In this document: piece by piece, positions 37,301-58,842 of the stretch
How positions within the stretch are numbered: position 1 is the first letter of the stretch
How the letters are laid out: each line of letters starts with the position of its first letter
NCBI RefSeq assembly: GCF_008831285.2
Contig: NC_045141.1
Location: forward strand, 11,086,106 to 11,150,105
Source: Nymphaea colorata
Lineage: Eukaryota; Streptophyta; Magnoliopsida; Nymphaeales; Nymphaeaceae
Reading direction: 5' to 3'
DNA length: 64,000 nt
Notes under the pieces: model-generated
What the model was told of the DNA's origin: nothing
The model's input: the letters and a program-made list of their open reading frames with translations, nothing else
Database searches by the model: none
Position numbers and translations under genes: made by a program

Positions 37301-39529
37301 TTTCCTGAAACAAAACCAGAACTGAGCTGAGGAGCACCAATACGAAATTCAAAAATTTAAAAAAAAATACGAGAATTACCTGATTATCTACTTTCAGTTT
37401 ATCTAGAAGGACATTTATAAGCTCTAGTTGAATATCTTCACTCTCCTCCAACACCACAGTCATGATTGCTTCCATAGAGGTAAAAACACACTCAGCATGG
37501 TCCTCCCTGAAAATTAAACAGGCACTAAGCATAAGCTATAATTATAAAAAGAGATCACACCTATAGATATCAACATAAAGCATGATTATCCAAGTTAGGA
37601 ACTAAGGACAACTTAGCAACTCAGGAAAACAGGCACCTAAGAAACCATGCCAGACCACCTCAAAGATTGAAAGCCCCAGAACGTTATAGGTGACCTTGGT
37701 GACCACTATTACCTTCCATTGACAAAGACAAACAAATATTGATTGTGTTAAACCAAAAGGAAACTGATTCATCCACTATGAGAAGACAACTTGTGAAGAC
37801 AGAATAACTTGGCTTTATGAAACCCTGTCAAATTATTAGAAATTGATGAATTTTTGGCAGAAACACACTCTTGCCATCAAAGAAATATTTAAAGATATTA
37901 GCATCAGCAAGAGTGAGCAAAGCCAAAAAAGAAAGAGATCCCAGAAGGAGGTTTCAATTACATTATCTGCACATATATTGATCGTAGTCACGCATAAAGA
38001 TGGATAACTTTAACCATACCTTCAAAGAATCACTTTTGTTCTCTTGAAAACAATACCATTTATCAGATATAGGGCATCAATTACCCAGACCATTCTCAGA
38101 AGTTGCGGGACAAGGTTTCTTGGGGTTTTTTCTCCCTCCAAAAAGTGCTCTTAGTTGGGAATAATATTGGGGAGCTATATCACATGGATGCAGGTACGGT
38201 ACAGGTTCGGGTATAGTGGTACCAGTTCGGACACGGCAATTTTAAAAATTGTGGGTACACAAGTATGGCAAATTTTATATTCTCAAAAATGATAAAATGA
38301 AAAAAAACATAAATAGTTGACACTTATAATCTCATAAGAAATCTCAAACAAAACATTGTTTATCATAAGAAAAATGGGAGGAAAATATAAAATCTTAGTG
38401 GAAGGGAAATATAAAAGAAGGGCCAAATCAAAATTAGAGAAAAAATTAAGTTTAAAAATATAATTCTAAATGTTTTAAAATGCAGCCGTACCCACATACC
38501 CGTGTCGCCGTACCACGTACCGACATGGGTACCTAGGCAAATTACACGTACCCATGTCACATAGTTGGAGAGATCTTATATTTTTAAACTGAATTCAGTC
38601 TTTTAGTATTTTTCTTGCAAAAATACAGAAGACTGAGTAAAAAAAACTGTCTGAAAAGTGAAAACACAAAAGAAACCCACATGTAAAAGACATAAGGAAC
38701 ATTGAAAGTCCGAGAAAATTCCAGGAATAACTCAGGATAGTTTGCAATACTTTTGTTTTTTAGCGACATATTCAAAATACTGCATTATTTACCAATATTA
38801 TTGGCTTATTACAAAAATATCTATCGTATCAAAAGTTTTTTAACATACCAAAAAGATATGTGACCACAGTGAGATATATTCATAATTTCATGTTGCAACA
38901 AAATAACACCAATACCATTATAGAAAAATAAGTAGCAACGTTTTCACATGAGATGTTTTTAAGATGTTCTTAGGAAAAAAAGAACTCTAAAAAATATAGA
39001 AAACAGGAAAACTTCAAACAGACTTTTAAGCATTTTTCTTGACAACTTTTGTTTAAAACATGAAAAAAAAACACAATTAAGAAACAATAAACTATAAAAC
39101 AGAAAACTAACAGACTTTTTTAGGATAATCTACAAATTGTTATATCATAACAATGTCAAGATATAGATTTTGTGGATATATTTTGAAATTATCAAGCACA
39201 CATTCACAACATATTAAGATGGCTATGAAATGCTGATTTTAGTGATTGTGGATCCAAAATCAAGATATATCACAACATATTAAGACCGCACCCATTCTTC
39301 TTTTCTCTTGTTTTTTTTTTCCTTCTCCTATCTTTTCCTTTTTTTCCTTCCTCTCTCCCCCCCCCCTTATTTTATTTAATAAAACCTTTAATTTTGTACG
39401 AGATTAAGGTAACCTTGATAAAAAAAAGGTTTAAAAATATAAACAAATAAAATTACTCATATAACAAATAACATATGTATGTATGTCTGTATATATATAA
39501 CACATGTTATATATTTATATAAGTTATGT

Positions 39530-39613
<84 letters not shown>

Positions 39614-42461
39614 ATATGCATAGAATATTTTTTTATATGCTATATAACATATATTTATTATAGTAAACAACACACGTTATATACATATTACATATATATG
39701 TATAGGATATATGTTATACTATATTATATATATAATATAGTATGTTGTATATATATGTGCATATATAACATATATATGTAATATATATACATTTATGTTA
39801 CATATATATATAACATACAACATATATATATATATATATATATAATACAAATATACACATATATATGTTACAGAAACATAACATATATATATTTATATGC
39901 TCTCACCGCACCCACACCCAATTCTTTTTTGGAACTTGCCGCATCCCACACCCATGTGACATAGCTTGAATGCTTCATCTTGGGCAAATTGAATCTGATT
40001 GAGAGCCAAAGTACCCATGTGCCTACGTGGGCAGACTAGATCCATGAAAATAGAAAACAGGATGAAGACCAAGTTATTGGGAACTGCAGCATATAAATTA
40101 TAAACATACTAGCCCACAAGCTCATACACAAGCATGAGAGTAAAGAGCAATACGCATCACACATATGCCGTACATATATGCATTTTCTGCATCCACATGT
40201 ATCCGCATGACTTATAAGACCATAAGTCTCTGTATTTACATCTGTCAAAATGTGCAGACAGATACACGATAGATAGTTTCTGATATTGCTGCACTATTCG
40301 ATTTAGAACTTTTTTCCCCGTATATGGTTGACTCATACAAAGTCCATAGAAACACAGAAATTCCAAAAGTTAACATAAAAAAAAGAGGAAAAATATGAAC
40401 CAAAATTTGAGGATGCAAAGATCAGGACTGGGTCAGGCTTGAGAAACAAATATCAAGATTCAAGACATATACCACATAACTCTTGAAGAAGATTGCAATC
40501 CTGCACCTACGTTATTAAAACCTCGGCGAGGCCTCGTCTAGGAGCGGACTAAGCGTGAATCAACACCCGTCACCTAAGTCCACCACTTAGGCGACGAGAC
40601 ATGTGTTGGCGCCTAGCACACCTAGTCCGTGGGAAAAAGAAAAGTCACCTTCCCTTTCAATTAAAGTTTTTAATTGAGTATATATTCTTATGTAATTTAT
40701 TTTGTATTGATTACGCATTTTTATGTATTGTTATGATGATTATGATGTTATATGTATACTGTTATCTGTATATACTATTAGTCACTTAGTCTATTATATA
40801 GTATTATGATACCTCAAACCCGTTATATGTATACATTAGTATGGTTATGTTACGTACTTACATCATATAGTTATATGTATTGTTAATTTATTATACCTGT
40901 TACAAACTTATATGTATATACTATTGTGTTAAATTGTAGTGCAAATACAATTTGTTATTCCTGCTATATGTATTGCAATAGTGTTATATGTATATACTGT
41001 TATGTACAGTCCATTATATCTGTTACATAGTATTGCATCAACCTATTATATGTATATACCGTTAGTTGTTATATAATATGTAGCATTGTGATACCTGTTA
41101 TATGTATATGTTAGTATGGTTGTGTACTTATCTGTATTGTTACTGTTCTGCACTACGTCACAAGGGTGTGGGGTGCGGAATGCGGCAAATTCCAACAAAA
41201 AATTGGGTGCGGGTGCATCGAGAGTACATACATACATATATATATATATCTGTGTGTGTGTGTGTGTGTGTTATTTATTATATTAGTAATTTTATTTGTC
41301 TATATTTTTAAACTATTTTTATCAAGTTCATCAATGAAAACTCGTTTTAGAACAGCCAAAACTCATTTGACGCCGTTGTCGGGCTGCACCTGCACTGATG
41401 CAGGTGTGCCACCATAGTTGGCGCACCCGTGTGACTTAGATTCTGCACTTATATGTATACTATTATGTACTGTTAGTCTTTTTTGTTATATTATGTCTTT
41501 CTTTAAGTATAGATGGATTAAAGTCTTCTTCCGGATTTACATTCCTTCTTCTAGAGATCAGATTTAGTTTTTTGTTTTTTCTTGTATCAGATTGCATTTA
41601 ATGAGTAAAGCGAAACTCTTATTGATTTTGCATATTCAATGAAGTCAACAATAAATTTTTTATAGTTTAAGTTGATTATGTTTGTTGTATTATTACTCTC
41701 CAGTCTCCACATTTCAGATATTAGTAATAGTTAATCAAAATAACTTCACATATTAGCATAACTAACAAAATTAAAAAAAAATATATTGGCCGCCTTTTTG
41801 CCTAGGCTGACCAAAGCCCGCCTAGGCACTAGGCTCTGTCTAGCACCCAGGCACTACCTGGGAGCCTTGTCAACATAGGATTGCACCCATGTTGCACCAA
41901 CCAGGTGCTGGTCCTACTACTATTCACCAAATTTAATTGGCAGCTGTTTATAAGACTGGTTCAGTGTTCACTTTAATTTACTGCTGTTATAAGTCATAAA
42001 TTACTAAGCGAAAACCTCATAAGCATTTTCTTTTTTTACTTTGATATGCATAATTCCTAATCCTAACCCTAATGTTTTTCCTTTTGATATTAAAAGGTGC
42101 TGATCACACACACATATGCATAGCCAAGACATCATTCTCTTGAGCCCCTCAGCATGGTTTTCGCAAATTGCCATTTTTATTATTCTCAGGAAATTCTTAG
42201 AGATTCAAGAATAGAACATACAAGGAATAACACAAAAAATCATTAGAAGACAAATTTTAACAAATTTTCTTACAAAAAATGTTAATAAAAATTCAAAAAC
42301 TTAAACTTACAGCTTAAAAAATCATTTAAAGTACATCGAAAAGGTTTTTTAAAAGGAGGCAGTTCTTATCATATTTTGAATGACTTTCCCAAGGCAGATA
42401 TTATGAAATATAGTGACTTTGCCAATAAGAATGTCTTCGTCTTTTCTGCCAGAAATATCTG

Positions 42462-42504
<43 letters not shown>

Positions 42505-45500
42505 ATATATATATATATATATATAATTATATATATACGACACAGCTTCGGTCCTTTTCTTCCATACCTTATATCCAAACCCATGGTTATTTTACAGCTT
42601 TACATCTCTACCAAAAACCTCAAATCCCAAAAAAGATGTTTACGAAAAAAAAGATAACACCTAAGATTGGAACTTTATCCAAGTTCAGTAGAAAGTGGTT
42701 CAATTTTTTTTTTTACTCCCATATATTTTCAGCACCCTCGGCCCATGCCACAGTGATGTTAGAAGCCTGCACCTAAAACCTACACGGCATTGAACTCTGA
42801 TGGGCATGATTCACTATAAATTAGGAAGTCAAACAGACAATTCCTAGCCTGACAACATAATGCAAGTTGTGGTTCTTACTGGGCTACTACTTAGAAGAAA
42901 AAAGGTACTTGTTTAACTTTGACATAGTCCAACAGCCCAAGAAACCAAAAAGAGTAAAACAAAATTCTGTAAAAGAATAACAAAGAATTCCTGTATGTTA
43001 AATATCAACTCAATAATCTATCTGGTGAAACTAGTGAAGAACGTGTTAAAGGAATAAATATCATTGGCATTAGCAATGTAGGCATGCCATTACATTACCT
43101 TATAGCTTTACAGAAATGACGAAACATCTCAACAATCAGGTCGTCACATTCAAGGTCCAGCATTACCACACATGACCTAACTTTTGCAACAGTTTCAAGA
43201 ATCAAAACTCTTTTAGCAAATGAAGGGGTACTTGTTTCTGACAGATCCTCAAAAGTTGCCACAATCATCTGAAATATTTCCTGCACATGAGAAAGGAAGT
43301 GACATAAAAGTACAAAACAATTCCTATAAATTCTTGACACAGACCAACAGAAATTCAGGCAGAAAATGTTGGAATAACATTGTATCACACATACCTTCAT
43401 CAATTCGTCATCATATGGAGCATCGGGTGCAGTAATTCGTGTGATTTCACTAAGACATGTTGCCACTGAAAGTCTAACATCTTTATCTGAATGCCTCAAA
43501 AGTGCAGGAGTGACCAGCGACTTCATTGATGGACAAAGTGCAGTAGACATTGACGTTGAAGGTGACTGCTCTACTCTACCCAAACAGTTCTCTAGTACCT
43601 ATTAAACCAAAAAACAAAATGGGAAAAAAAAAAAAGAAACTGCTTCAGAATCTCGATCAGAAAATAAATTACCACAGGACCCACTTTTAGGTGAACAACA
43701 AAAAAATGGATCTATAGGATTACCACTAACTACTTAGCACAACAGCTCAATTTCATGTAAAAACAACAGAAAAAAAAAAGTAGCTATATGTAAGCATATT
43801 TCCAGTGATAGTGATATGTTTAACTAAAATAGACTCTGTGTCTCCTCCTTAACACAAAATAACCATCCAGATATGAAAAAAAATGACGTGCCCAGCAACA
43901 TAGACAACAGCCAAGCCAAACTGTGTGTTCAAGCATTTACTCATAAGAGACTTTAAATTCTTCATACAAGTTTCAGAAGCATACTTAACAAGTTGCATGT
44001 ATAAGTAAAAACGAACATGCTTGTTTTGTGCTTGTGGAATTTGTTGACAATCATGTGGAAGTATAATTTGTGACAAAATTATTCTGTTAAGAAAACTATC
44101 CAAGGGACGTGTCCCTATTACCTTATTCAAAATTTGTAGCATCATTTACCAAGATTACGATATTTCATAGAACAAAGCTCAAATTTAGATTTTAGGGTCA
44201 ATTCAAACTACAAGAAATAAGGTCCGAGACTATCTCTTTACTTACCCTGTACCCAACAAAAGAACAGATGGAAGAAAAGATTGATCCATCAAAATTAGAT
44301 GGATATTAAAGCAAGTTTACATTGTGGGCATACACAATGTAAGGTGACATCATTAAAATCAACAATAAAAGAGGACAGGAAATCTGAATTATGAATATCG
44401 TCCAATCAGTAAGCTAGCTTGGACTAGCCAGTTTATATGTGAGACAAGATCTTACAGAAGAAGAAAATGACAAGATTCATATCTGATTAACTGTAAGCAT
44501 AATCTGTTCCAGGGCAGGATAAAAAAACCCAAAGCCAGTACTACTGTAGCATCACTGAAAAGACTGAAAAGAATTAATGGTCAAGCTCATATCTTAAAAA
44601 TTCAAACCACTTTACCTTAATTACGTGATCTTTTAGTGTGTAATCATTAATACTGCGGTGAATCCTATGGTAAAACAATTTTGTACCGCTAGGTGGAATT
44701 AATCGGGCTAGAGAAATAAAGTTTTGAAACAAGGACATTTATTGCGCACTTCATTCAAAATAAAACGCCATAAACTTATTAAACGTATCCAAGAGTGCCT
44801 CAAGAAAAAACCTTCAGTTATAACTAAGAAGTACTTTCAAATCTGTGGAACAAGGGATGACCTAAGCTTTGAATAGAAGTAAAATGAGGAAGTAAGAGCG
44901 TCTAGGTCATTTTTGCTTTAAATTTGGGTGAATCCTTCAGTCCCCAAGAACCAAACATATAGTAGCCAAGACACTAGATGTGTTTGGACGCATTCATCAC
45001 AGGGTTCTTATAGAGTGATCAGTGGTTTAAGAGGTTCGACCAAATTAAAGAAAAAAAAATCAATAATACCATCAAGGCATCTTAAAGTATTAAGGCGGAT
45101 AGGACTGAAATAAAAATTTTAGCCACCTCATTCAAATTTTAGCTTCTGCACTGTGTACATGTTCTTTTTCACTATACCTCTTCAGATATATCCAAGGAAA
45201 TGGCTTCATTTTTTATCCCGTAAACGCCCAAGATACTCCAGCAGTTACACATTTTGCATTTACAAAAACAAAACAGAGGAAAAAAATACTCGATAAATGT
45301 CCTCCTCTTAATCCCTACCAATCGGCAGAAACCCTGGAAACTTTGGTGTAGATTGACAAAGAGAAGAAAAAAGATTCATGCAAGCAACTCTCTTATACCC
45401 TAAACCATTTTATCGTCTCAACTTGCAATCCACTAGAACAAATGAACCCGGACCCTAATGCGTATACCACCCTATGAGAGAGAGAGAGAGAGAGAGAGAT

Positions 45501-45674
45501 GACGAGGGCTTCACCGCGGGAGTACAGACAAACGAAACAACCCCGCCAACCCTCACCACAACAACGGCAAGGTACCAGAAAGAGAGAGAGAGAGAGAGAT
45601 TCGAGGACTTCCCGGATGAGCACAGAAGAAAAACCAAAACGCCATGCCCTACCGCAACAACGGCAAGGTACCCC

Positions 45675-45715
<41 letters not shown>

Positions 45716-45868
45716 GGGAGTGGAAGAGGAAGAGCAGAACAAGAGAGAATAGAAGGAACCAACCTCGAGGAGGCAACGAAGCTCGTCGAGCTCAGCTGGT
45801 GGCTTCCGGAGCTTATTCCCAGCTTCGACGAGCTGTTCCTCCAGATCCTTCTCCACGGCCGACGCCAT
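24186..45868 (-). CDS. PDS5C: PDS5 cohesin-associated factor, PDS5C-like, with Tudor domain
   Basis: Exons in transcript order: 45868-45764, 43598-43395, 43280-43099, 37506-37380, 37304-37131, 33954-33904, 29768-28950, 28856-28752, 26178-26093, 25417-25366, 25280-25197, 25122-25079, 24505-24422, 24345-24186; 758 aa, all junctions in phase with GT-AG sites. Residues 1-264 are HEAT-like and carry LSEITRITAPDAPYDDELMK, LETVAKVRSCVVMLDLECDD and VLEESEDIQ, diagnostic of plant PDS5 proteins. Residues about 265-600 are Lys/Ser/Glu-rich with basic, NLS-like clusters. A Tudor domain (about 600-658) reads SLVGSKIKVWWPLDKMFYEG ... VSYADGDQEE, with aromatic cage candidates W612, W613, F619, Y620, Y627 and Y638. 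The C-terminus is basic. PDS5 proteins regulate cohesin in sister-chromatid cohesion and repair; the Arabidopsis PDS5C Tudor is reported to read H3K4me1. The start ATG has a strong context (AAGATGG). The protein is shorter than Arabidopsis PDS5C, mainly in the middle; three optional tiny exons could add 24 aa. Confidence 0.92.
24584..24610 (-). other. Optional 27-nt PDS5C exon (uncertain)
   Basis: Acceptor AAAAG|GACATGG and donor AAAGG|GTACTC bracket 27 bases. The length is a multiple of three, so inclusion or skipping both keep frame between the exons ending at 25079 and starting at 24505. In the frame demanded by the neighbours it encodes TWIIKEGKG; another frame reads KSKGHGSSRKGKG, which looks more like this protein family but cannot be joined in phase with the sites I see. 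The donor is weak. Confidence 0.3.
31918..32682. mobile_element. hAT-like element in a PDS5C intron (765 bp)
   Basis: Starts CAGTGGTGCCAGTATTG and ends, on the other strand, CAGTGTTGTAAAAG; CAGTG is the usual hAT terminus. GC-rich subterminal parts carry ACGATACA / CGACCTATACGAC motifs around an AT-rich core. The flanking 8-mers ATGGTGAG and ATTGACAG match in only 5 of 8 places, so the insertion is old. No transposase. Confidence 0.5.
34124..34135 (-). other. Candidate 12-nt micro-exon of PDS5C
   Basis: TTGTTGCAG|CATCCAAGTGAG|GTACAAAA on the - strand: a pyrimidine-rich acceptor, 12 bases in phase 0 encoding HPSE, and a GT donor. It lies in the 3.2-kb intron between the exons ending at 37131 and starting at 33954, both phase 0, so it can be included without a frameshift. 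Confidence 0.35.
34219..34317. repeat. Composite (CATA)n-(TA)n-(TG)n microsatellite
   Basis: In a PDS5C intron. (CATA)n runs from about 34219, (TA)n from about 34261 and (TG)n to about 34317. The frame across it is an artefact. Confidence 0.9.
34467..34499 (-). other. Candidate 33-nt exon of PDS5C
   Basis: CTTGTTTCAG|AGTGTC ... AAATGTCAG|GTATGTTT on the - strand: strong acceptor and donor, 33 bases in phase 0 encoding SVSLSVVPKCQ. It fits between the IHQPE-ending exon and the KDESK-starting exon. A Ser/Val/Pro linker is plausible in this variable part of PDS5C, but I have no homologue match. Confidence 0.45.
34772..35491. mobile_element. Foldback element with 151-bp inverted arms
   Basis: The left arm 34772-34922 and the right arm 35341-35491 are reverse complements with only a few differences, for example AATCGAATACAAAAACC at the left end and GGTTTTTGTATTCGATT at the right. 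The spacer is about 418 bp. It sits in a PDS5C intron. No clear target duplication. It may be a MITE or an inverted duplication; a transcript would form a long hairpin. Confidence 0.85.
38175..38564. mobile_element. Small CTAyGTCAC-family element, copy 1 (390 bp)
   Basis: Starts CTATATCACATGGATGCAGG and ends, on the other strand, CTATGTGACATGGGTACG. The subterminal parts are rich in GGTACGG-type motifs, the core is AT-rich. Flanks TTGGGGAG (38167-38174) and TTGGAGAG (38565-38572) match 7 of 8. It is the most diverged of the copies, with GGTACG replacing GGTGCG. In the 5.6-kb PDS5C intron. Confidence 0.55.
38565..39528. other. AT-rich part of the large PDS5C intron
   Basis: Low-complexity A/T sequence with a pyrimidine patch (39295-39370). 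No exon of the PDS5 family was seen in the 37507-43098 intron. Confidence 0.4.
39529..39612. repeat. Palindromic (CA)n-(TA)n-(TG)n microsatellite
   Basis: (CA)n, then about 22 TA units, then (TG)n. The array is its own reverse complement and could extrude as a cruciform. Further TATA-rich repeats follow to about 39900. Confidence 0.95.
39903..39964. mobile_element. Partial CTAyGTCAC-family element (one terminus)
   Basis: Read on the - strand it starts CTATGTCACATGGGTGTGGG and continues ATGCGGCAAGTTCC, then AATTGGGTGTGGGTGCGGTG, closely matching the left end of the copy at 41153. The other terminus was not found; the element runs into the AT-rich microsatellite zone on its left. Confidence 0.5.
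40507..41878. mobile_element. hAT-like element (about 1.4 kb) hosting a nested element
   Basis: Ends are CTACGTTATTAAAACC and, on the other strand, CTATGTTGACAAGG, both followed by GC-rich CCTAGGCG-type subterminal motifs. Flanks TCCTGCAC and GATTGCAC match 5 of 8. The interior is an imprecise array of TTATATGTATA-type units (40680-41140, and after 41447). No transposase. In the largest PDS5C intron. Confidence 0.5.
41153..41439. mobile_element. Small CTAyGTCAC-family element, copy 2 (287 bp), nested
   Basis: Starts CTACGTCACAAGGGTGTGG and ends, on the other strand, CTAAGTCACACGGGTGCGC. Flanks GTTCTGCA (41145-41152) and ATTCTGCA (41440-41447) match 7 of 8. A (TA)n-(TG)n microsatellite lies just inside the left GC-rich block. 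It is inserted in the 40507-41878 element and is therefore younger. Confidence 0.65.
42466..42537. repeat. Composite (CT)n-(GT)n-(AT)n microsatellite
   Basis: In the 5.6-kb PDS5C intron. Frames across it are repeat artefacts. Confidence 0.9.
45478..45703. repeat. Tandem GA-headed duplication and (CA)n in PDS5C intron 1
   Basis: Two diverged units of roughly 100 bp (about 45478-45572 and 45583-45676), each starting with a (GA)n run and ending CAACAACGGCAAGGTACC, followed by (CA)n at about 45676-45705. It lies just inside the first intron, 60-290 bases from exon 1. Confidence 0.7.
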
Positions 45869-46540
45869 CTTCCTTCCGGCGACCGCGCGCAAAAACCTTG
45901 ACCCTGACCCACCCACTTCCACTTGTTCAACTATCAGGCTTCCCCCAACGCCATCCCCGACGAGGAAGCCCTAAAAGCACGAAAAGAAAATGGAAGTGCT
46001 AGGGCAACAATCACAAGTGAACGGCAGAACAGCAACCGGGTAAAAATGCGGGCTAGGGTTTCACGGAGGTAACTCAACACACAGTGGAGATGGAGTCTGA
46101 GAGAGAAGAGTGAGAGGGAGGGAGGGAGGGAAGGCGCGGAAGGGCAAAGAAGAAGGAAAGAGGGGTTTTGCCCCTTTCTCTTTTTCCTTTGTGCCGCTCG
46201 CTGAGTGGCTTGTCCCGCGGGGGAGAAGTGGGGGAAACGGAAAAAAGAAAAAATGGTTGGTCCCCGGAAACAGAGAAATTGAAGCGTTCTAAAGAGAATC
46301 GTGGGATCCGCCCGGAATCCGCCGGGTTTTATTGATTTCAGCTCACGCTGGGGCTTGAGATCCGGTTCCGAACTCCCCCTACGTGCGTCATCATCGTCAC
46401 GAGTCGGTCCCGATGTGCACCCTCAGCTCGTGTTCCCTCTCCGCCTTTCACGGCCTCCGTCCCGTCCCCTTTTCCCTTCTCCTCTTCCTCCCACAATAAA
46501 CCCCATACTCCTCGTTCCCGGGATCGATTTGTGAGCCCTC
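45869..46540 (-). promoter_or_regulatory. PDS5C leader and promoter flank
   Basis: A locally GC-rich, purine/pyrimidine-skewed stretch directly upstream of the PDS5C ATG, contrasting with AT-rich DNA beyond 46540. No TATA box close to the expected start, which fits a broadly expressed gene. Frames here (45499-46002, 46110-46534) have no family match and are likely chance frames in GC-rich DNA. Confidence 0.5.
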
Positions 46541-48550
46541 GATTTGAAATACAAGAACTTAGTTATGCACGTGAAATTATTCAAATGCAACCCATAATTT
46601 TGTAAACAGTTGCCAAGAAACTGGTCTTATGTTAAATTATGCTCGTTCATAATTAGTATGATTTTTTATGTTTTTTATAGTTCTATTGAGCGAAAAGTAC
46701 TTTGTTGGTATAGTTTGAATTTTATGGACACAGTTGTGCAAAGAAACTCTGAGAGATAAAAGACAAAAAAATTAATAGATTATGTTTTGCAAAAAAAATG
46801 GCGTATATTTAACCTTGTAGAGTGTATTTGGTTGTTCAAACAACATTGACTTCATGTACAAGCTATTATTGTTATTCAATGCACAATCAAGCATCAAATC
46901 CTCATTTTTTTTTTTCCATATGATGTTTCAGCCTTAAGTTTCTTGAGTAAAAAGTGGTTTTGTAAAATAGTTTTTTTTTAGTTTTTAGGTGCCATAAAAA
47001 AAAAAAAGAAAACTTTGGTTTTCGCAAAACCTGGTTTTCTAAAATGAAGTGAAAAATCTGACCACGTCAACTTATTCATGAAATCAAGTTTTAGATGTGT
47101 CACCCAAATAAATAACACCGGGCTTATAGAATTCATTAAAAAATGTGCTTTTACAAGACCAAGTATTAGATAGGGGTGTCATCCAGATGCACCTTAAAAA
47201 ATTATATTTAATATATTTGACTCTCTTCTCTCAGGCTTGTAAGTAAAAGTAGGGTACACTCAAAGAGCACAAAAGCGCTCATTTAAATAACCAAAAAATT
47301 GCCTTTAAAGTTGGAAAAGGTCAAAAGCCTAATAGAGATAGATATGACACTAATCCAAAATCCATTTTCTATGGGGCTCATATAGGTAACAAACACTGGA
47401 TTTCAGATCCATAAAAAAGAAGGATTTGAGATCCTACCCAAAATCCTCTGACTTATGATCCTTAATGATCTTAGATAGCCTCGGAACCGGATCCCGATAA
47501 ACAAATGCCCTTCCGAAAGAGAAGTACTAATATAATTTAATCACATCAATTTGGTGGAATTTTTTCCTCCCTAAAATAAAGTGATATTAATTGTAAGAAA
47601 AAAGGCATGGCTTGTGGCAAGCAACGGTTCATAAGTTTAATGCAAGCCTTTTGAAGTAACCAGAAGGTCGGGCCGGAAACGAAAGGCTAAAATAAATGAC
47701 GTGTTTGTTGTCCGCCTCTACTCTAATTGCTTTCAAAATCTTGACTTTGATGAACACGAAAGTGAAATGGATACGTTTCAATCGGTAAAGTCAAACGCAT
47801 AAACGAGAACTTTACATAGGGACGCCAACCTTTTGTGATATTGAAAAACACTCCTTCTTTTGACTCCTTTTTCATCTAACGGCTTTTAGTAAATGTAACT
47901 CCAATGGTTGTAAAACCTATAAGCGTGCCTCGCGAACGAACCCTCCAAAAGTTGGTAACTTTTTTGTGAAAATATTCCAACACATTTTATCGTGTGCCAT
48001 TCAACTACTGCGTATGCGTTTTACTTGGATATAATCTTATTAAAAGCAGGAGAAACAGTTTTTTCATGCATGAAAACATCGAATTAGATTTCGTGGAAAT
48101 TTTGAAGTTTTGTCGTTTCTGCATCGGATAGTATAAAAGTTTTCAAGCTTTGATTGTGTGGAAAAACACGTGCATGGTTTTGAAATTCTTTTAATTTAAC
48201 AACCACGATTATATTTGTCGAGTGAAGCCGTTTCTGCGGCCAAATTGAAATACTACTAACTTTAATGTTATTTTATTGGGATATGATGTTGTCGATTTTA
48301 ACTGCATTTTTATAATTGTTTTTTCTTTTTTAAGGTAAATGGTCTTTTTTTTTAAAACCGTCTTAATGAAAGTCAATTGCTTCCCTCCTGTGCCCATCAC
48401 CACCACACTGTTCCTTGTGTCGGGACATATTATGGTGGAGATGATGAGCACACTATATCGTAACAGCAATCACAAAATTTAAATCAAATACACCAGCTTA
48501 CCACCCAGTACGTTACGTTACAACCCCTAATGATTAAACCAAGAAATTCT
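46541..48550. other. Intergenic region upstream of PDS5C
   Basis: AT-rich DNA with no supported gene. A (T)n-rich patch lies near 46905-46915. No complete element could be delimited. Confidence 0.35.
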
Positions 48551-48554
48551 AAAC

Positions 48555-49850
48555 AACCTCTACATGCTTGAGCACCTGCTAGCTAAATGCAAACCCATCT
48601 GCTGGAGACGATCCTGTGTGGGGAAGCCTGCCATGACTAGCAATAAAGCAAAACCACGCTGCTCGAGGAGGAGAGTCCTTGGTCCCAATCCATTGGCACC
48701 AGGCTCCTCCACTTCTTTCTCTCTAATCACCCTCACTGGGTAGAAACTCTTACATTGATCAACAGGAAAACGGCTACCCAGTACCTCACAAGACTCACCA
48801 GAACATGCTTGATAAGACAAATTCCACCAGGGTGGGTAAGATAGCATCTTGGGCTTCCAAACTGCAGGATGCTTCTGAGTCTTGTGGAGGAGCTCCTTAC
48901 ATCCCTCCAGAGTTAGGCTACTGCGGAAGAGAGGTAGACCAAGGTAAAATTTAGGCCTTCGTTGTGTTTAGATCTTCATTAAAATCAAAATTTTATTAAT
49001 TAATGCTTTAGAACCAGGCTGTTAGAAGCTATTTTTAGCAGCAAAGATGATGAACATGCACTGATTAGCAGGAGCAAAGAAGTGGTTTCCCAAGGAAATG
49101 ATAATCCCATAAAGTTACAGATCCCGTTCCTTGATCTTTTGATCATCCGCTTCCTTTATATTTTCTAGACAAATTATTCACATGAAAGTCAAGGTTTTTG
49201 TTTCCCACAGTTTCTAGCTAGCAAGGTGGGTCAATCAATTTCAGTAATAGTACTTGGTTTTTTTTGTCATGCAGTATTTAGGGCCATATTGTTTTTGCTT
49301 GGTGACTGCCAAGACTAGAATCTAAACATGCAATGGCCACTTTGTCAAGTTAAAAGGCAATTGACCGCCAACCTGCCATCCTAGTAAAGCCTTAATGCTG
49401 CTCACTTGCCTTTCTAGATGAAAAGGGATGATGGTGGATTTGTGCTCATCGATTCTAAAGCCCGCATGGGTGCAAGGGTCTCTCAAGAATCTGTCAATCT
49501 TACGAATAGAAGTAATGTTGGCCTTGCTGAATTGAACAACATTACCAATGAAGGATAGCATACCTGGGCATTGCTTCCCTCAAGAAACCAAGGTGTGAGA
49601 ATCTTCTGTTGCTGTAGACTGTAGAATCTTCTGTTGCTGTAGACTGTACTCCAAACTACAGGAGACCATCTCCATGGCTACCTTAAGCATACCCCACCCA
49701 ATCTAGAGGACTGCATGTTGTGAACAATCTCATGGACGTAGATCACGTTCTCGTAGATAGAACGCCCCAGAAGGAAAGCCGCCTGCAAGGGAGAAACGGT
49801 ACGCACAAGAACTGATGACTTCATGCGTCAACCATGATCTTCCATGTATA
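48555..49850 (-). pseudogene. Decayed L1-type LINE reverse transcriptase
   Basis: On the - strand, from high to low coordinates: QAAFLLGRSIYENVIYVHEI (about 49785-49726; RT pattern QxAFxxGRxIxxNxxxxxE), then the segment 49561-49322 with FSKANITSIRKIDRFL and EHKSTIIPFHLERQV (RT region after the FADD box), then 48847-48560 with GFPTQDRLQQMGLHLASRC (start of the zinc-binding tail). Stops and frameshifts break the frame, and the FADD catalytic box itself is not readable. Non-functional. Confidence 0.75.
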
Positions 49851-50654
49851 CGTTAGAGGAATTTTTAAATTTATTTTGCTTGCTTTGGTACATTTCAGGA
49901 CAAGGGCATTGTTTGTGTTTTACATATATAAGTTGTGAGCTTCTTGTTTTTCACGGTAGCAAAATATATAAAAAGATTATCGTGTATAAGAGCATGATAA
50001 GCCTTTAAGACAAAACGTTCTTCACAAAAAAAAATCAAATTCAGAAAATTCCAATCAGAAAACCAGTGTAGTTCTCTTCACTACATTCAGTTTGACCTCA
50101 CCTTCCATTTAACTTATTTCACCATCTACATCGCTGTGGACTGTTTGAAATTGGACTTCTAAGAATCATTGTGAGACATGATTAGCATATTATGCGTTGC
50201 AAATATAAAAAGCATTAGTCAACCTTTGTTAAAATAAAGAATGGATAACAAAAACAAACCCTTGACAAAAATATCATCTGCTGCTCTTTAATTGTTATGT
50301 GATTCATTTTTTCAGACGATACCTCACAAAGAATTTTCATCATGCCATCTTGTGAATGCATTCTCACAGGCAATCGTCTACGTAGAAAGTGGTTCTAGAT
50401 ATCGTTGCAATCTCTCTTGAATATTTTGTGAAAAACCTTTGAAACCCAAGGTTAATTGAACACTTACGCATATTTGTAATACATATGGATGGACATAAGT
50501 TTCAAATCCAAAGATTAGCTTGACTACAACATCCATGTATGTGCTCATTTTTTGTTATTTATTTCACTGTAATTAATTGTACTCCATATTTGGCTTAAAT
50601 TGATTTCAGGAGGCACCCCTAAAAACCATGCTTTTGTTAAAACCATGTTCAAAG
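49851..50654. other. Intergenic AT-rich sequence
   Basis: Between the LINE remnant and repeat copy B. Nothing recognised. Confidence 0.4.
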
Positions 50655-51716
50655 AGTAAAACCTGGTTTTTGTGTTGGCATCTGTAATTTATTTTGGTTT
50701 TCTTTTGGAGTGCTTCATAAAAATAAGGTTTTATTTTGAAGAAAGAGATAATGGAACTTGCCCGTCGGTACGAGAATTGACCATTCCCAGTGCTTTTTAC
50801 CAGGATAATTAATCCAAGGGTTATGCTTATTCTTGGTGCACTTCATTTTTACTTAAACATCTTATTCACCCTAAATGCGGTGTGGTGCTTAGAAATAATG
50901 CTGAAGATTGATATGTCAAAGACTTTTATATGAGAAAAATTTAAAGTATCTTTTGAGAGATTAAACCTTTTTTATTGATAACCTTTCAAATTGAGAAATC
51001 TTTGCAAATATCATTTAAAAATCTTTGAAAATCAATGTGCGTATTTTGAAGATTTTCTTTTCGAATCAGTTTACCTACCTAGCTAGAACTTCATCTCATC
51101 GTGTTTTGGTTCTCATAGAGAAGTACTTGTAATCATTCATGAATTCCACAAGTGAATGCGAATGCAAGAATTTTATATGCTTAAAAATAAATTGTTCGTT
51201 CACACTATAACATTATTCTAAAAACATTCTTACCATCACATACATCTAAATTTTTTCACATTGCTTACATATTTTCTATCATTTCGTCATAAATTTTTTT
51301 GTAAAGAAAAAAAAAGTTTTTGAAAATTGAATGAGATTGTAGACTTCAAACATGATTTTAATATTGGGTCATCACTTGAGTTTTGATCTTAATAAAGTAG
51401 ATAAATGAAAATTAAAATGATAGGTCTTAAAAAGAGATACTTAGATGAATGAAAAAAAGAAAAGAAAGAGAAAGAGGAAATGATTTTGGAAAGAATAATA
51501 TATGTATATTTTATAAATACATATATGCACTAACACATATGATAATTCACAAAATGATTTTAAGCTAAAAGAAATAAAGAAAAAGAAAAAGAGAATTTGG
51601 AAACAAAGAAAGAAATATTTTAAAAAGAGAGAGAGATGTACATGTACATGTATATATATAGTTATATATATGTATATAAAATTTTATAAAAAAAAGATCT
51701 TAAATCGAAGAGATGA

Positions 51717-51718
<2 letters not shown>

Positions 51719-51799
<81 letters not shown>
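51719..51799. repeat. (TA)n-(GA)n microsatellite in repeat copy B
   Basis: About 21 TA units followed by about 18 GA units. The frame spanning it is an artefact. Confidence 0.95.
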
Positions 51800-51801
<2 letters not shown>

Positions 51802-52714
51802 CACACATATAAAAATTAAAATTAAGAGATAACTTGAAGCATTTTCGAGTCCAATTTTTTTTTTTTATGTAGGCCAGAGAGGAACTTAGGTTCATGAAAT
51901 ACTCTAGGCTAAGTCTTCAAGGTCTCATTAAAAAGGGTTCTTATTTTTTAAATTCTTTTAAAAATGAGATTCAAAATACTTTTATATGAGCATGTAAAGG
52001 AATTGGTATATTTCATCTACTACAATGAAATTTATTTCTTCTGCTATTGGGCATGAGAGAAAATCAAGTATATATGAAATAAAAAGTTATTGACATAAGA
52101 AAGCTCTAGTGGGATTCTTAATCTGGTGATTAAGAGAAATGCTAAACGTAAGAATGTTATAAGAAAACATTTTAACATGTGCACATTCGTGAGAGATTTC
52201 CTAAGTTGGAAAAATCTCAACATCAAAAATTAATGTTAATAAAGAAATTCTAACTCAAGCACTTATTCTTACCATTCATTCACATATTAATTGAAAAATC
52301 AATCAACTATACATGAACAACATCTCAAAACGAAACACACATTCAAGAGAAGGAAGAAAACATATTTCGATCTTAGAATGAAATTTTGTTTCACCATGTT
52401 CATGTTCCCGGTACACTCAAGAATAGCTCTTGATTCTGGAAGGAGTTTTTAGAGTTATCTTGTATCACTATCAAGAGATGAAAAAAGGAAACACAAAGAA
52501 AAAAAATGATTGAGATATCGACTACATACCTCTAAATAGACCAGTTGGAGAGATCTAAGCCTCTTCCTTGAATTACATGAAGCCTTCCTAAGTGAGCCAC
52601 CAAGGTATTGAGTATGTCTCCCTAAAATGTCTCCTCGTGCTCCCTTAAAGATAGAAGTTGAAGAAGAAGCTTGTTCCCAAGGTTAGAGAAAAAGAAGACA
52701 AAGAAGATAAGAAG

Positions 52715-53299
52715 CAATGTCACCTGGGTGCGTTTCCCAGGAGCTCGCACCCGCACCGACGCGTTGCGGGTGCGGGTGCGCTCCAGGTGTGCACCCAATC
52801 CGCACCCGATGATGAGGCGCACCCAGACCGCACCCAGGGGAGTTGGATCAAGTTCCGAGTCGAAACCAAATCCAAACCAAGTTCATCTGCGTGTATGGTT
52901 TGGATCTGGATCTGATTTCGGGATAAAACCAGAGTAAAAATCCACAAAATCAAATCCCCGTCGGCCGGGGCATCTAATTTAATACATCTATAGATATATT
53001 ATATGTTCTCTTTTCTCTTTAAAAAAAAACGATACAGGACTAAAGAATGGTGGCTTTCATAAAACGATCTGTTTGCCTTTTTTTTCAAACATTTCTTTTT
53101 TGATTTTTTCCCACTATCATAAAAATGTATAATTTTAATTGTGTTATTCAATTTCTACGAAAAATTAATAATAATAATAATATTAATATAATAAAATATC
53201 TTCACCGCACCGCCGCACCTAATTTTTTTGAGATGTGCTGCACCGGCACCGGCACCCGCACCGGCATCGTCACCCGCACCCCGCATTCAGGTGACATAG
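52715..53299. mobile_element. Small CTAyGTCAC-family element, copy 3 (585 bp)
   Basis: Starts CAATGTCACCTGGGTGCG and ends, on the other strand, CTATGTCACCTGAATGCGG. Flanks ATAAGAAG at 52707-52714 and 53300-53307 match 8 of 8. The left block is an array of GGTGCGGGTGCG/CGCACCC motifs, the right block likewise, around an AT-rich core with (AAT)n. Copy A of the host repeat lacks it. Frames at 52622-52953 are GC-block artefacts. Confidence 0.75.
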
Positions 53300-53422
53300 A
53301 TAAGAAGATAATGAGAAAAATGAAGAGAGAGAGAGATGAAAAAACTCTATGCCTTCAAATAAGAAAGCTCTAGAGGTTCCTCAATGGTTAGCTCATTTTA
53401 AAGAGAAAAAGTTTAAGGAGGG

Positions 53423-53430
53423 TATTTATA
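53423..53430 (-). promoter_or_regulatory. TATA box in repeat copy B
   Basis: CTATAAATACCC on the - strand at the position equivalent to 22737-22744 in copy A. The nested element now separates it from the donor-like site. Confidence 0.4.
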
Positions 53431-54099
53431 GAAAGTTTTGAAGCCAAAACTCAAAATTTAAATTTTTTTGAATTGAGTAAGATTTTCATGTGAATTTTAG
53501 TTTTTTTTAATTATTTTTATTTTTTTTAAATAAGTCTTGACCAAAGAAGATTGCCCCTTACCCATGCAAACACCCTTCTGTGGGTGTTGGCAGGGCTAGT
53601 GCCCACCCAACATGTTAAAATCGCCTCCTTTTTAGCCCAAAACAGGGCACGCGCAGGGCGCAAGCCTTGTGTTGGATGTGCCAAGGCATGTTGCTCTCAA
53701 GCACTGCTCAGCCCGAGCACACAAGTGGGGGCAAAATGTCCCCTATTGTCTCAAAAATGAGCCAATAAGGGTGGCCTTTGCCTCCCTAGCCTCCCAAGAT
53801 GGGTCCCAACTAAAATTAGTTTAAAATTTATTTTAAAATGTATATTTTGAAGGGTAAAAGGATCTTTTTCAAAAAAAAAAAAAAGTGAGACTTTGCTTTG
53901 GGTTATTCCGAACTTGTTTTGGATGCTTCCATACTTGTTTGGTCGCGAAAGCATTCTGATCGATGCCCAATGCTTGGATCAAGGGTTAGATGAGTGTTTT
54001 GGGCTTAAAACATATTTTTAAATTTTGGCCCAAGGTTGGGATGAAAATAAAATGAGGGTTCGCGTGTGTGTGTGTCGGTGCTAGATAGGGTTGGAAATT

Positions 54100-54400
54100 G
54101 TTATTTTGATCTCGAATTAGGATTTTGAATTGAAATTCTTGATTTGGATCTAAACTTTGGTTTTGGATTTAATTTGGATCTAAGGGCGGCTTTATGGATC
54201 CATCTTCTTAATTTGGACTTGATTTTGTCTATTATGGGCTTTGGCTTCGTATTTTGGATCAATGAGTGAACTTTAGATATAGGACATGAATTTTGGTCTA
54301 GATCTTGACCTAAAGTTGGATTTTGGATCTAGACCTTTTATTTGAACCCAGGTATGGATCTAAAGGTCTGTTTTGGACTTGGATATGGGTTTGAAGTCTG
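54100..54400. repeat. Degenerate TTTGGATCT-type low-complexity array
   Basis: TTTTGGAT, TTGGATCT and AATTTGGA motifs recur many times over 300 bp without a fixed period, probably an old short-unit satellite. Confidence 0.55.
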
Positions 54401-54579
54401 TTTTGTGGCGAGCTTGAGCATAGGGTCCATAGTTAGATCCAAATTGCTGTAAAAATAACCGAAATTACCGAGATGATGTTTGAATATATGGAGTATAATC
54501 TTTTGAAAAAATTTGAGGTGATAACATCATCCAAGCATAAAAACTAGCTTTAAAATCTAGTAGGACATATCATCCAAAC

Positions 54580-55032
54580 ATGCCCTTAATGGGGTGTTTT
54601 TTTTTTTTAATAATTTTGAAAGAACCGTCTAGAAAAGATTATTTATATTTCTTAGCTCAGGTGAAGAATTTTGCTAGATTTTTGTCATATAATGATACAA
54701 GTTTCCATAGGAAGAAAAATTATTTGTGTTTAACATGTGGGTGTCGTTTATGGGGTGTTTGTTTCACCTGTAACGAGATGGGACTTCCTTTTAAAGTGAA
54801 AGTATTATTTCAGAATCCTTTTCTTCACCTTGAAAGTATTAATCTTTACTCACATAGGCCAATGGCCTTGCAATTGCTTGTGAATGACAATGTAAATGTA
54901 TTGCCACCTATGAGTAGTAAATGCAGCCATAAGTTGGCGGTGGGAGGGTTGTACATTCAAGGCCACCTTCCTCCCATCCCTCACACCTCATTGTCCACGC
55001 AAAATGTCACAACGGTATTAAAGCCAAGTTAG
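54580..55032 (+). CDS. Unrecognised 150-codon open frame (doubtful)
   Basis: One of the longest uninterrupted frames outside the two genes. The product would start with a hydrophobic stretch (MPLMGCFFFLIILKE) and has several Cys residues, but no domain is recognised and there is no sign of introns or of a promoter. It may be chance or a transposon fragment. Confidence 0.12.
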   Translation: MPLMGCFFFLIILKEPSRKDYLYFLAQVKNFARFLSYNDTSFHRKKNYLCLTCGCRLWGVCFTCNEMGLPFKVKVLFQNPFLHLESINLYSHRPMALQLLVNDNVNVLPPMSSKCSHKLAVGGLYIQGHLPPIPHTSLSTQNVTTVLKPS

Positions 55033-55646
55033 TTATTGTGAGTCGTAAGAAAACTGTGTTAGTGTTCATGTTGCCAAATGATCTGCTAAGCAAGGTTTCA
55101 TCATGAGGCTCCACCAAGATGATGACATAAGTAGGAAAGAGGCAAGGAATTAGTGCATTATTAAAGACTGAACTAGTTGTTGTTGACAATTCGGGCAAAT
55201 GGATGCCAACCAACATTAGCATGTTGAGCCGGACATTGGACGAGGCTGCCTAACTCCTTAATAACTCTTAACAAAGGAATTGGTAGGTTGTTATGGTGTC
55301 CTTGGCTTCAATAAGCACCCCGGTGGTGGAGGATAAAGTGCAAGTACGAATTCCAGATCATGGAGTTTTTAGAAGTTGCTGATATATGATGTTGTTTTGT
55401 AATAATAATAGTTCTTTAATGTTTAATGCATATACCCTGAAGATTGAGACATATCTATGGAGCACTGTTTACGCCAAAGTTAGAGCAGATTCATAAAGTA
55501 TTATAATAGTTTATAACAACAAACTGTTCTCATTGCTAAATGGTCTTCAAAATAATAATGGTGCTGATTAATATTTCTCATGGATGATGCTTGTTTCTCG
55601 AAGTCACAAAGACCAATATGGTTCAAAGTTCAGACTAACTTTTGAG

Positions 55647-55841
55647 TAGGGACGGAGCTAGAAATTTTTCATGAGAGAGGCCGAATTAAAGTTTTTAATT
55701 TTTGACAAGGACCGAAATATCAATTTTCAAAATTTTTATATAAGACAAGTGAAATTTTCTAAAATTTACATGCAAATTTATTTTATTTTATTTTTGAGGT
55801 GGGGCCAAGGCCCTTGCAGGCCCCCCTTTTCTCCGCCCCTA
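55647..55841. mobile_element. Small hAT-like element (195 bp)
   Basis: Starts TAGGGACGGAGCTAG and ends, on the other strand, TAGGGGCGGAG. The right end GCCCTTGCAGGCCCCCC...CTCCGCCCCTA is typical of a common plant MITE. Flanks CTTTTGAG (55639-55646) and CCCTTGAG (55842-55849) match 6 of 8. Confidence 0.6.
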
Positions 55842-57314
55842 CCCTTGAGCATTGCATAGGAGACATTGGCATCACAAAGGGAGAGCTTGGAAAACTCTAA
55901 TTAATGCAACAATAATGCCCAAAGGAAGAAAATGGAAAAGCTTATGAAAGGCCACTCTTTCCATTCCTCATCAGCAATTGACCATTGGCCGTCACTACCC
56001 AGCTCCAGAGATGAGCAAAATTCTTGTTTGTGTTTGGTGAGCCCATGCACAATTGAGTGAAACTAGAATGGTAGGGATTATGTTCCTAGTGTTTCATGGC
56101 CATAGAGATGGAAATGAAATTCATGTTGTGAAACTACTAAACTAAACTGAAAGGAAACTCATACACAATGACCACCCCTTCACCAATTTTTTAGACTGAA
56201 GCCATGTGCAAGGAGAATGGTAGTCCTTCTCAACGAAATAATGAACCCAAATCACAATAATCTTGGTAGCTGTTGTTTTTATTATCATTGTTGTCATATT
56301 AACCAAAATAGAATATGCAACTCAGGTGATCATAAGATATCCCCTGAGACCCCAAAAGCGATATACATAGGTTAGAGAGAGTCATAAAAGGGAGCGAAAG
56401 TGCATTTACCAAAACTTTGGAGTAATTCAGAATTTCAGAATGTGAATTTTGGAGTGCGAAAGAACATGCCGCCCAGAAGCCTTTCCAAGCCTGAACCTTC
56501 CTCCGTTCTAGTCTAGGAATCATGAAGTACGTTGAAACGGTGGCATTTCCATGGTTACTTTATGCCGACAACCCAACAGCAAAAAAGACAAAAGAAGTGT
56601 TACCACACTGTTCCCTAGATAAGAATTTTGGTCTACCTTGAAATTTATTCCAAATGGTTATCAAATATGAAATTCCAGTTCTTTCTTTCTACATAACTTG
56701 TTAAGGGTTGTTTGGATGACAGCTCACAACTGAGTTTTGGGCAAAACACTGTTTGAATAATTAATCTCAAAACTGCGTTTTGACAAAATTCATTTTTAAC
56801 AAAAAAAAAAAAAAACTTAAAAAACATGCCATCTTTCTCTATGAGTTTTTTTCAGATGACAGGTAGTTATGTGCACTGGCGTGTACTATGCATAGCCCCT
56901 GGTAGTGCATGTCTAAAGAGTACGTATCATATACATGAGTTTACTGATGTATAAGGTGCACAGACCTCTCTATATAAAACCAACTTTCGCACTTTGTGTA
57001 AAAATAAGTTTTTGACATGCCACCCAAAAATTAAAACCATTTATTATAAACTATTTAAAATATTCATTTTTTTTTTCAAAACATGATTTTAACAAAACAA
57101 TCAAACCTTGTCCCTTTAGACATCGTTGGCATTTTGGATACTCGTTCAGGTAGGCCATGTCTCATAGTAATCTCACTTGATGATTCGGTTGAGGCTGGAA
57201 GGGGGTGTCGGAAGGGAGCCTTTCCTCAAATTTTAAAAAGTTTAAACATTTATATGTAAATATAAAAAAAAATTTCTATTATTCGGTATCTGTTAAAATT
57301 TTGAAAGTGTAGTG
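55842..57314. other. Intergenic region without recognised genes
   Basis: AT-rich; short frames only (56299-56523 and 56645-56827), without family resemblance. Confidence 0.35.
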
Positions 57315-58842
57315 TTAAAGTCCTGATAACACTGGAAACATTACCGTTATGAAGTCTTGTCCGCAGCATCAAGAGACGAGAAGAAGTAGGGAAGTTTTAG
57401 AAAGAGCTCTTGCGCCTTTAGAGGATCCTATTTAATTAAATGAAAGGGTCGGAGATTTGCCTGTTTTCGTTTACCACATGGGGAAGACCATGTATAAATG
57501 AGCGGTATAGGAATTTGTTCTAAGTTGATTATGCGTCAACTCTCAGTATATAAAAAAAATTATACATCCTAAAATATCCTAATCAATTGAAAAATGAAAG
57601 CTTTTTGTAAAAATAAGAAAATATAACAAAAAGGTTAAAATCCATGAAAAATATTTTTTTGAAAAAACTTTTAAATACCTTGACTCCCTTTTTTTTTCCA
57701 AGCACGTATCTATTTCATGCAACTCTTTCTCAAATTTGTCTCATTTTCTCCAAACCTAGTTATACTCAACATACTGGTACATGAATTTTCATGCATAATT
57801 AATAGCTAAAATACCCATATTTCACATTAAAAACCACAAAAATAAAAAGATTATTTTTTTAACAAATTACCAAAATGCCTTTCTTTCCTTTACTACCACA
57901 CAACTTTCTCTCCTTTTTCCCTTCTACTTTCCACCTAAGCCCCCTCCACTCTGCCATTTGTATCAACCCAACTCCTTCCATCTCTACCAAAATCGCCACG
58001 GGTGCCGTTGGAGCTGCATGAAAAAAAAAGGATAACGTACAATTCATTAATTTGTATTTTAACAATAATAAAAATATTAAAGTCCTGATAACATTGGAAA
58101 CATTACCGTTATGAAGTCTTGTCCGCAGCATCAAGAGACGAGAAGAAGTAGGGAAGTTTTAGAAAGAGCTCTCGCGCTTTTAGTGGATCCTATTTAATTA
58201 AATGAAAAAGAACTTTGTAACAAGGGTCGGCCATTTGCCTGTTTTCCTTTACCACGCGTTAATATGGGGAAGCCCATGTGTAAATGAGCGGTATAGGAAT
58301 TTGTTCTAAGTTGGTCATGTGTCAATTCTCAGCACATAAAAAATTATACATCCTAAAATATCCCAATCAATTAAAAGATGAAAACTTTTTATAAAAATAA
58401 GAAAATTTAATAAAAAAGTTAAAATCTATAAAAAAAATACTTTTTTAAATCTTTAAAAGACCCTAACTCCTTTTTTTTTTTCCGACGCATATGTGTTTCA
58501 TGCAACTCCATCTCAAATTTGCCACTTTTTTTCTCAAATCTAGTTATATGTGCTATATTGTGGACTAATTTTTGTATGTGTTAATAACTAAAATATTCTT
58601 AGTTTACATTAAAAAAAATTTTATAAAAAAAGATAAAAATTAAAAAAATTAAAAAAAACATTTCTTTTTAAAAAGTTATCAAAATATCCTTCCCGCGTCT
58701 TCTTGGCACGTACAACTTTCTCTCCTTTTTCCCATGCACTCTCTTTCTCTCCACCCAAGCCCTTTCTCTTCTGCCATTTGTATCAACCCAACTCCCTCCA
58801 TCTCTACTAAAATTGCCATGGGTGCCGTTGGGGCTGCATGAA
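57315..58842. repeat. Tandem duplication of an approximately 710-770-bp segment
   Basis: Copy 1 (57315-58021) and copy 2 (58077-58842) both begin TTAAAGTCCTGATAACA and end GGTGCCGTTGG(A/G)GCTGCATGAA. Similarity runs throughout, with small indels. About 55 AT-rich bases lie between the copies. Matching - strand frames (57859-58134 and 58668-58865) arise from the duplication; they have no recognised domain. Confidence 0.85.

Follow-up and report, generated by a model that had tools for sequence, protein, structure and literature searches.

The window, a 64,000-nucleotide stretch of the Nymphaea colorata genome, holds three complete copies of a short transposable element, each bounded by inverted CTAyGTCAC ends. 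These are c1 (38175..38564; 390 bp, GGTACG-type), c2 (41153..41439; 287 bp, nested in another repeat), and c3 (52715..53299; 585 bp, non-autonomous, with ends CAATGTCACCTGGGTGCG and CTATGTCACCTGAATGCG). The flanks of c1, TTGGGGAG at 38167-38174 and TTGGAGAG at 38565-38572, match at 7/8 positions, as do those of c2, GTTCTGCA at 41145-41152 and ATTCTGCA at 41440-41447, while c3 is flanked by ATAAGAAG on both sides (52707-52714 and 53300-53307; 8/8). On re-inspection, the coordinates that a first-pass annotation had assigned to the three copies were exact to the single base, and the 8-bp target duplications it had claimed (7/8, 7/8, and 8/8) took the same values when recomputed from the boundaries that the inverted ends define.

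In random pairs of 8-mers from 36000-55000, the chance of a match of at least 7/8 was 0.00087, and the other duplication lengths (5-12) at the same boundaries gave at best 4/5, in c3. When length (4-12) and boundary shift (+/-4) were varied jointly, 2000 random triples never scored as high as the observed duplications; among the parses so compared, an asymmetric 7-bp one (32.4) and the symmetric 8-bp one (32.2) are tied. The identical flank runs of c2 and c3 span 9 and 10 bases, extending into the terminal bases, and the c3 flank is repetitive (GAAGATAA-like), with 8/8 obtained at other shifts too. Because of these longer runs and the repetitive flank, the 8-bp length rests on the symmetry of the ends and on the genome sample described below. 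The same runs of 9 and 10 bases would favour non-autonomous Mutator-like (MULE) elements whose 9-bp duplications had been misread as 8, a reading that is weighed with the genome data. A search for empty (uninserted) sites inside the window returned nothing beyond the elements' own flanks.

The ends themselves were readily recovered by a leave-one-out profile. The two ends of each complete copy ranked 1st and 2nd of ~128,000 positions, and the single end of a partial copy ranked 1st; since the ends of an element reach the top even when that element is kept out of the training set, their definition is not circular. Six of the seven window ends start with CTA, the remaining one being the CAATG of c3. 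A candidate extra end at 24047 (profile rank 3-4) had no downstream duplication of at least 7/8 in 24100-28000.

GGTGCG/GGTACG blocks had been described just inside the ends. The motif GGTrCG/CGyACC occurs 30 times in the window, and 21 of these occurrences sit in the four element intervals. Compared to within-element shuffles, the blocks are enriched in the complete copies (motif count reached in 0/500 for c1, 1/500 for c2, and 0/500 for c3) but not in the 62-bp partial copy (43/500). The left half of c3 also holds five CGCACC in the opposite orientation, and its GC-rich left arm (52715..52846, plus strand), with inverted GGTGCG/CGCACC blocks able to fold back, gave a DNA fold z of -4.5, with none of 200 shuffles equally stable. 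Rfam at gathering scores gave no match over 36000-56000. In arm-versus-arm comparisons among copies, 5 of 12 beat all 200 shuffles, and the right arm of c3 and c2 have an inner block in common (score 34, with no more than 25 in any of 200 shuffles). The cores of c1, c2, and c3 showed no mutual match when 17 genome elements and the window copies were compared by blastn; the ends and the motif class, not the cores, are common to the complete window copies. The motif is largely low-complexity GGTGCG and the c3 flank is repetitive, as would be expected of unrelated simple-repeat or GC-rich tracts alike by chance, but this reading has almost no likelihood left, being refuted by the leave-one-out end ranks, the duplication statistics, and the genome sample.

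The partial copy that the first-pass annotation placed at 39903-39964 carries a real family end, but the element extends further, its c2-like pieces lying at 39414-39473 and 39883-39964. This left-truncated sister of c2 (39414..39964, minus strand, inverse to c2) has its right end at 39964, and an AT/GT simple repeat splits its interior, so that the core match at 39414-39473 is kept apart from the right end by expanded simple repeats; its left end and duplication were not found in the upstream stretches scanned. The expansion is a long AT/GT microsatellite at 39500-39900, where in c2 the AT/GT run is short. Pfam was run on 30 of the 32 window frames that reach 110 aa (one of the two omitted being a simple-repeat frame); none contained a transposase domain, and only two PDS5 pieces were matched, both on the minus strand, at 43098-43598 (6.1e-33) and 37035-37535 (4.8e-5, below the Pfam cut-off). 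As c1, c2, and the truncated sister are placed between these two PDS5-matching stretches, they are probably within introns of a PDS5 gene.

Other repeats lie in the same window. The repeat enclosing c2 (40507-41878) has ends CTACGTTATTAAAACC and CTATGTTGACAAGGC that also start with CTAyG, and CCTAGGC-type inner repeats; its flanks agree at 5/8 only, and it may represent a further family with CTAyG ends. An inverted repeat at 34760-35503, with 118-nt arms that are 94% complementary and 508 nt between them, is a possible fold-back element. A local block duplication is found at 57315-58842 (pieces 87-97% identical, ~760-820 bp apart), and an old dispersed repeat occurs twice, at 20688-21765 and 50810-51698, ~30 kb apart, with pieces 70-79% alike.

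We then used the assembly to which the window belongs (407.8 Mb, 783 contigs) to examine the family genome-wide. An 18-base end pattern with up to 3 mismatches had 12,144 matches (6126 + 6018) vs 3,519 (1780 + 1739) for a backwards control. The sample consisted of the first 30 exact end matches, all on contig C1 and therefore non-random, and a partner was defined as an opposite end with up to 5 mismatches at most 1.5 kb away. Such a partner was present for 23 of the 30. The first-pass annotation had called for the duplication length to be tabulated across the genome, and 8 bp was borne out: 17 of the 23 paired loci were flanked by 8-bp duplications that match at 7 or more positions, compared to 1/23 for 5 bp and 0/23 for each of 6, 7, 9, 10, and 11 bp. 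These 17 short elements measure 250-1208 bp; two of them, L011 and L024, have an identical duplication sequence and may be non-independent. The absence of any fit to 9 bp stands against MULEs. Target sites favoured nTnnnnAn in 37 of 54 half-sites from 27 elements (P = 2.6e-8 vs window base composition). In the window, the copies have the traits of miniature inverted-repeat elements (MITEs): a length of 287-585 bp, inverted ends, many end matches in the genome, and no transposase domain in the 30 frames.

For the other 13 of the 30 loci, 10 kb each were inspected. Pairing was found for L043 (331 bp; 8/8 flanks, 6 mismatches in the partner end) and for L031 (379 bp; 7/8 flanks, 7 mismatches), and the best flank match was 6/8 for L037, L038, and L040. 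Altogether, 11 of the 30 sampled ends had no convincing partner, first within 1.5 kb and then within the 10 kb; a 7/8 pairing of L034 with an 8-mismatch end 8.4 kb distant was taken as chance. Near the unpaired ends, long frames at L032, L039, and L040 and a second one at L036 had retroelement domains, one at L042 belonged to an RCC1/FYVE gene, and that at L041 matched no family.

One unpaired end, L036, led to the transposase. A 392-codon frame lies 525-1701 bp inside it and matches DUF659 (3.6e-30), with a weak match to the hAT dimerisation domain (1.9e-4); the far end of L036 is broken. A genome search with this frame returned 110 matches, itself counted, eight of which scored 787-788 bits at 86% identity and had open 670-codon frames. 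Many-stop matches to the frame were found at L033-L035, loci with unpartnered family ends. These three lie within 84 kb of C1 and have in common their end, the 8 bases beside it (CTATTTAT), and the remains of a decayed transposase, which suggests duplication of the locus, not separate insertions. Two of the open 670-codon matches (G000:C9:23388124 and 23390856) are just 2.7 kb apart, and at least one of these elements may therefore be incomplete or nested.

Ten DUF659-hAT loci (L048-L057) were fetched and searched for ends. L048-L052 measure 3,451-3,458 bp, carry CTAyGTCACACGGATACGG at both sides, and are flanked by perfect duplications that all differ from one another (GTGGGAAC, CATGCCAC, ATGTATAT, GTACTAAT, and GATATGAA). 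They are 98.7-99.9% identical and have a 670-codon open frame, at element positions 918-2927 in L048, with 1-3 amino-acid differences per pair. Family-type ends and perfect 8-bp duplications were also found at L053 (3,890 bp), L054 (3,543 bp), and L057 (3,639 bp); the L053 and L054 proteins are 58-60% identical to that of L048, and the L053 frame is without the N-terminal part. Thus, family-type ends at both sides occur together with a perfect 8-bp duplication at 8 of the 10 DUF659 loci (L048-L054 and L057), of which five are near-identical. L055, with a DUF659 protein that is 52% identical, has no family-type ends, and L056 has one end only. Among control loci of other hAT families, 0/4 qualified, giving only 7/8 flanks with 14-16 summed end mismatches. 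The longer autonomous relative encoding a transposase, whose search had been proposed, is thus represented by full-length copies with such ends that encode a hAT-type protein. Five sites with different duplications and 98.7-99.9% identity point to recent transposition, and on these sequences the family probably moved recently. Another hAT family, with no match to DUF659, was noted at G000:C2:26645836 (L045), C7:15923320, and C14:6138091; the identical domain scores and open 657-codon frames at these three places suggest that this second hAT family may also be recently mobile.

We characterized the encoded protein from the frames of L048, L053, and L054, the L057 frame being left out. The L048 frame matched DUF659 (2.9e-47) and the hAT C-terminal dimerisation family Dimer_Tnp_hAT (PF05699; 3.5e-13), which was also matched by L053 (6.6e-14) and L054 (1.5e-14). 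Against the PDB at E values up to 1, L048 had five matches: four Hermes chains (1.2e-5 to 2e-5), covering the C-terminal region, and PIX (0.0051). A Glu of L048 aligns with Hermes E572 (counted from chain 4d1q; residue number as given in PMC6027215). D292 of the L048 frame is invariant in all eight aligned hAT proteins, in an alignment without Hermes. No match to zf-BED, the N-terminal zinc finger of hAT proteins, was obtained at E 0.01 for L048, L053, or L054; a CxxC..H..C stretch aligns with hAT proteins, three of which match zf-BED.

Together, these results weigh heavily against the other superfamilies. Full-length elements with such ends encode a protein that has both DUF659 and a hAT dimerisation domain, and with the genome-wide 8-bp duplications this leaves MULEs with a very slight probability. 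P-element and Novosib-type elements also produce 8-bp duplications, and MITEs of either type would account for that length together with the non-canonical terminus. Both are listed among plant MITE groups (in the account of PMC7385995). They are nonetheless most improbable here, given that the protein between such ends in L048-L054 is hAT by two Pfam families and by the Hermes match; if they have a part at all, it would be in subfamilies such as the c3-like copies, which match none of the full-length elements compared. The hAT-like nature proposed from the window is supported by the 8-bp duplications of the genome sample and by the hAT transposase between such ends. We conclude, with high confidence, that the window elements are non-autonomous members of a plant DUF659-type hAT cut-and-paste family.

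The first-pass annotation had voiced doubt over the terminus, and this was justified. The hAT consensus is given as (T/C)A(A/G)NG, with a plant form (T/C)AGNGNNG (as stated in PMC6027215). CTAyG agrees with the former at 3 of its 4 fixed positions and departs at position 2, and CTAyGTCAC fails the plant form at three positions (2, 3, and 8). Of the seven window ends one, the CAATG of c3, satisfies (T/C)A(A/G)NG. We took the terminus consensus as diagnostic, not defining, because the transposase defines the hAT superfamily. Searches based on (T/C)A(A/G)NG would miss this family, and hAT annotation should allow wider ends. Among the matches listed, the literature on hAT ends, subterminal motifs, and DUF659 elements contained no account of this family, and none joined hAT with these end strings or with GGTGCG/GGTACG; papers that contain the end or motif strings had titles unrelated to transposons, again among the matches listed. 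A 26-base end pattern had 0 matches in viral and prokaryote contigs, which is expected for a plant element and uninformative. The family may already be named in a repeat database (Repbase, Dfam, or P-MITE). A broader proposal, which we offer tentatively and at somewhat less than even odds, is that DUF659-type hATs form a lineage with its own CTAyG rule (T at position 2), and with GGTrCG arrays whose two ends change in step (the GGTGCG subfamily and the GGTACG subfamily), and that this lineage is still mobile in this plant and has here one of its largest short-element populations.

We compared the short copies with the transposase-bearing elements by blastn. Alignments to the arms or the interior of the latter were obtained for L008, L011, L019, L020, L022, L023, L024, and L026, and for L001 across 22 bp only. 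Four of the 17 short elements have, between family arms, a fragment of the transposase frame that corresponds to positions 1708-1752 of the L048 element: L019, L022, and L024 (45 bp, 96-98%) and L026 (33 bp, 91%). At 1e-5, eight of the 17 (L004, L009, L010, L012, L015, L017, L027, and L029) matched none of the full-length elements used in the comparison, and the same was true of c3 and the truncated c2 sister. In the window, c1 matches an arm of the transposase-bearing L036 (76%, 156 bp) and c2 an arm of the full-length L053 (82%, 82 bp), in each case the arm only. The best matches among the fetched loci were L002/L031 for c1 (86% over 332 bp), L030/L043 for c2 (75% over 296 bp), and L004 for c3 (81% over 128 bp), and at these modest identities the window copies are probably old. 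The arrangement is that of Ac and the several Ds classes (as described in PMC3260210), with alignments that connect only part of the short subfamilies to a transposase of their own.

Neither c3 nor the c3-like L004 and L029 match any full-length element compared at 1e-5, and in its left arm c3 has motifs in opposed orientation; a c3-like subfamily mobilised by a different transposase, with only the end design in common with the rest, could explain both features. We consider this rather unlikely, though far from negligible, given that the ends of c3 rank 1st and 2nd by a profile built from other copies and that its right arm has the inner block in common with c2 that exceeded all 200 shuffles.

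In the proposed mechanism, a transposase made from the long copies would bind the GGTGCG/GGTACG repeats and the ends of the short copies in trans, and would then excise them, as hAT biochemistry suggests. Insertion would take place at a target cut with an 8-bp stagger, its second base being T and its seventh A, and repair of the gaps would yield the 8-bp duplication. The short forms would come from internal deletion and filler capture, as for maize Ds. With thousands of end matches linked to one particular transposase frame that is intact and was recently copied, the family offers a testable two-component system akin to Ac/Ds, and the split between GGTGCG and GGTACG is a natural test of joint change in the transposase and its putative binding site.

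Among known systems, the 11-bp ends of Ac differ from those of this family, its hexamer is AAACGG vs GGTGCG/GGTACG here, and the transposase here is of DUF659 type. Maize Ac/Ds is alike in combining an autonomous element with heterogeneous short relatives that have common ends and subterminal hexamers, variable filler, and 8-bp duplications (as described in PMC3260210). The housefly hAT Hermes resembles the family in the C-terminal dimerisation region and, by alignment, in the position of the putative catalytic Glu, although the significant sequence match is confined to the C-terminal region. The ends of Hermes differ from those of this family. Its 8-bp targets are also of the form nTnnnnAn (according to PMC10368747 and PMC2803484). 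Arabidopsis Tag1 likewise has short motifs near both ends, but the subterminal motif is different and 6 of the 7 window ends start with CTA. The Tag1 terminus resembles the CAATG terminus of c3. TGACCC and AAACCC motifs near the two ends of Tag1 bind the Tag1 transposase (as reported in PMC3143072). Grapevine Hatvine, with many defective copies in that genome, and Brassica nigra BniHAT-1 and BniHAT-2 are, by description only, similar plant hATs with 8-bp duplications (as presented in PMC2528002 and PMC7385995).
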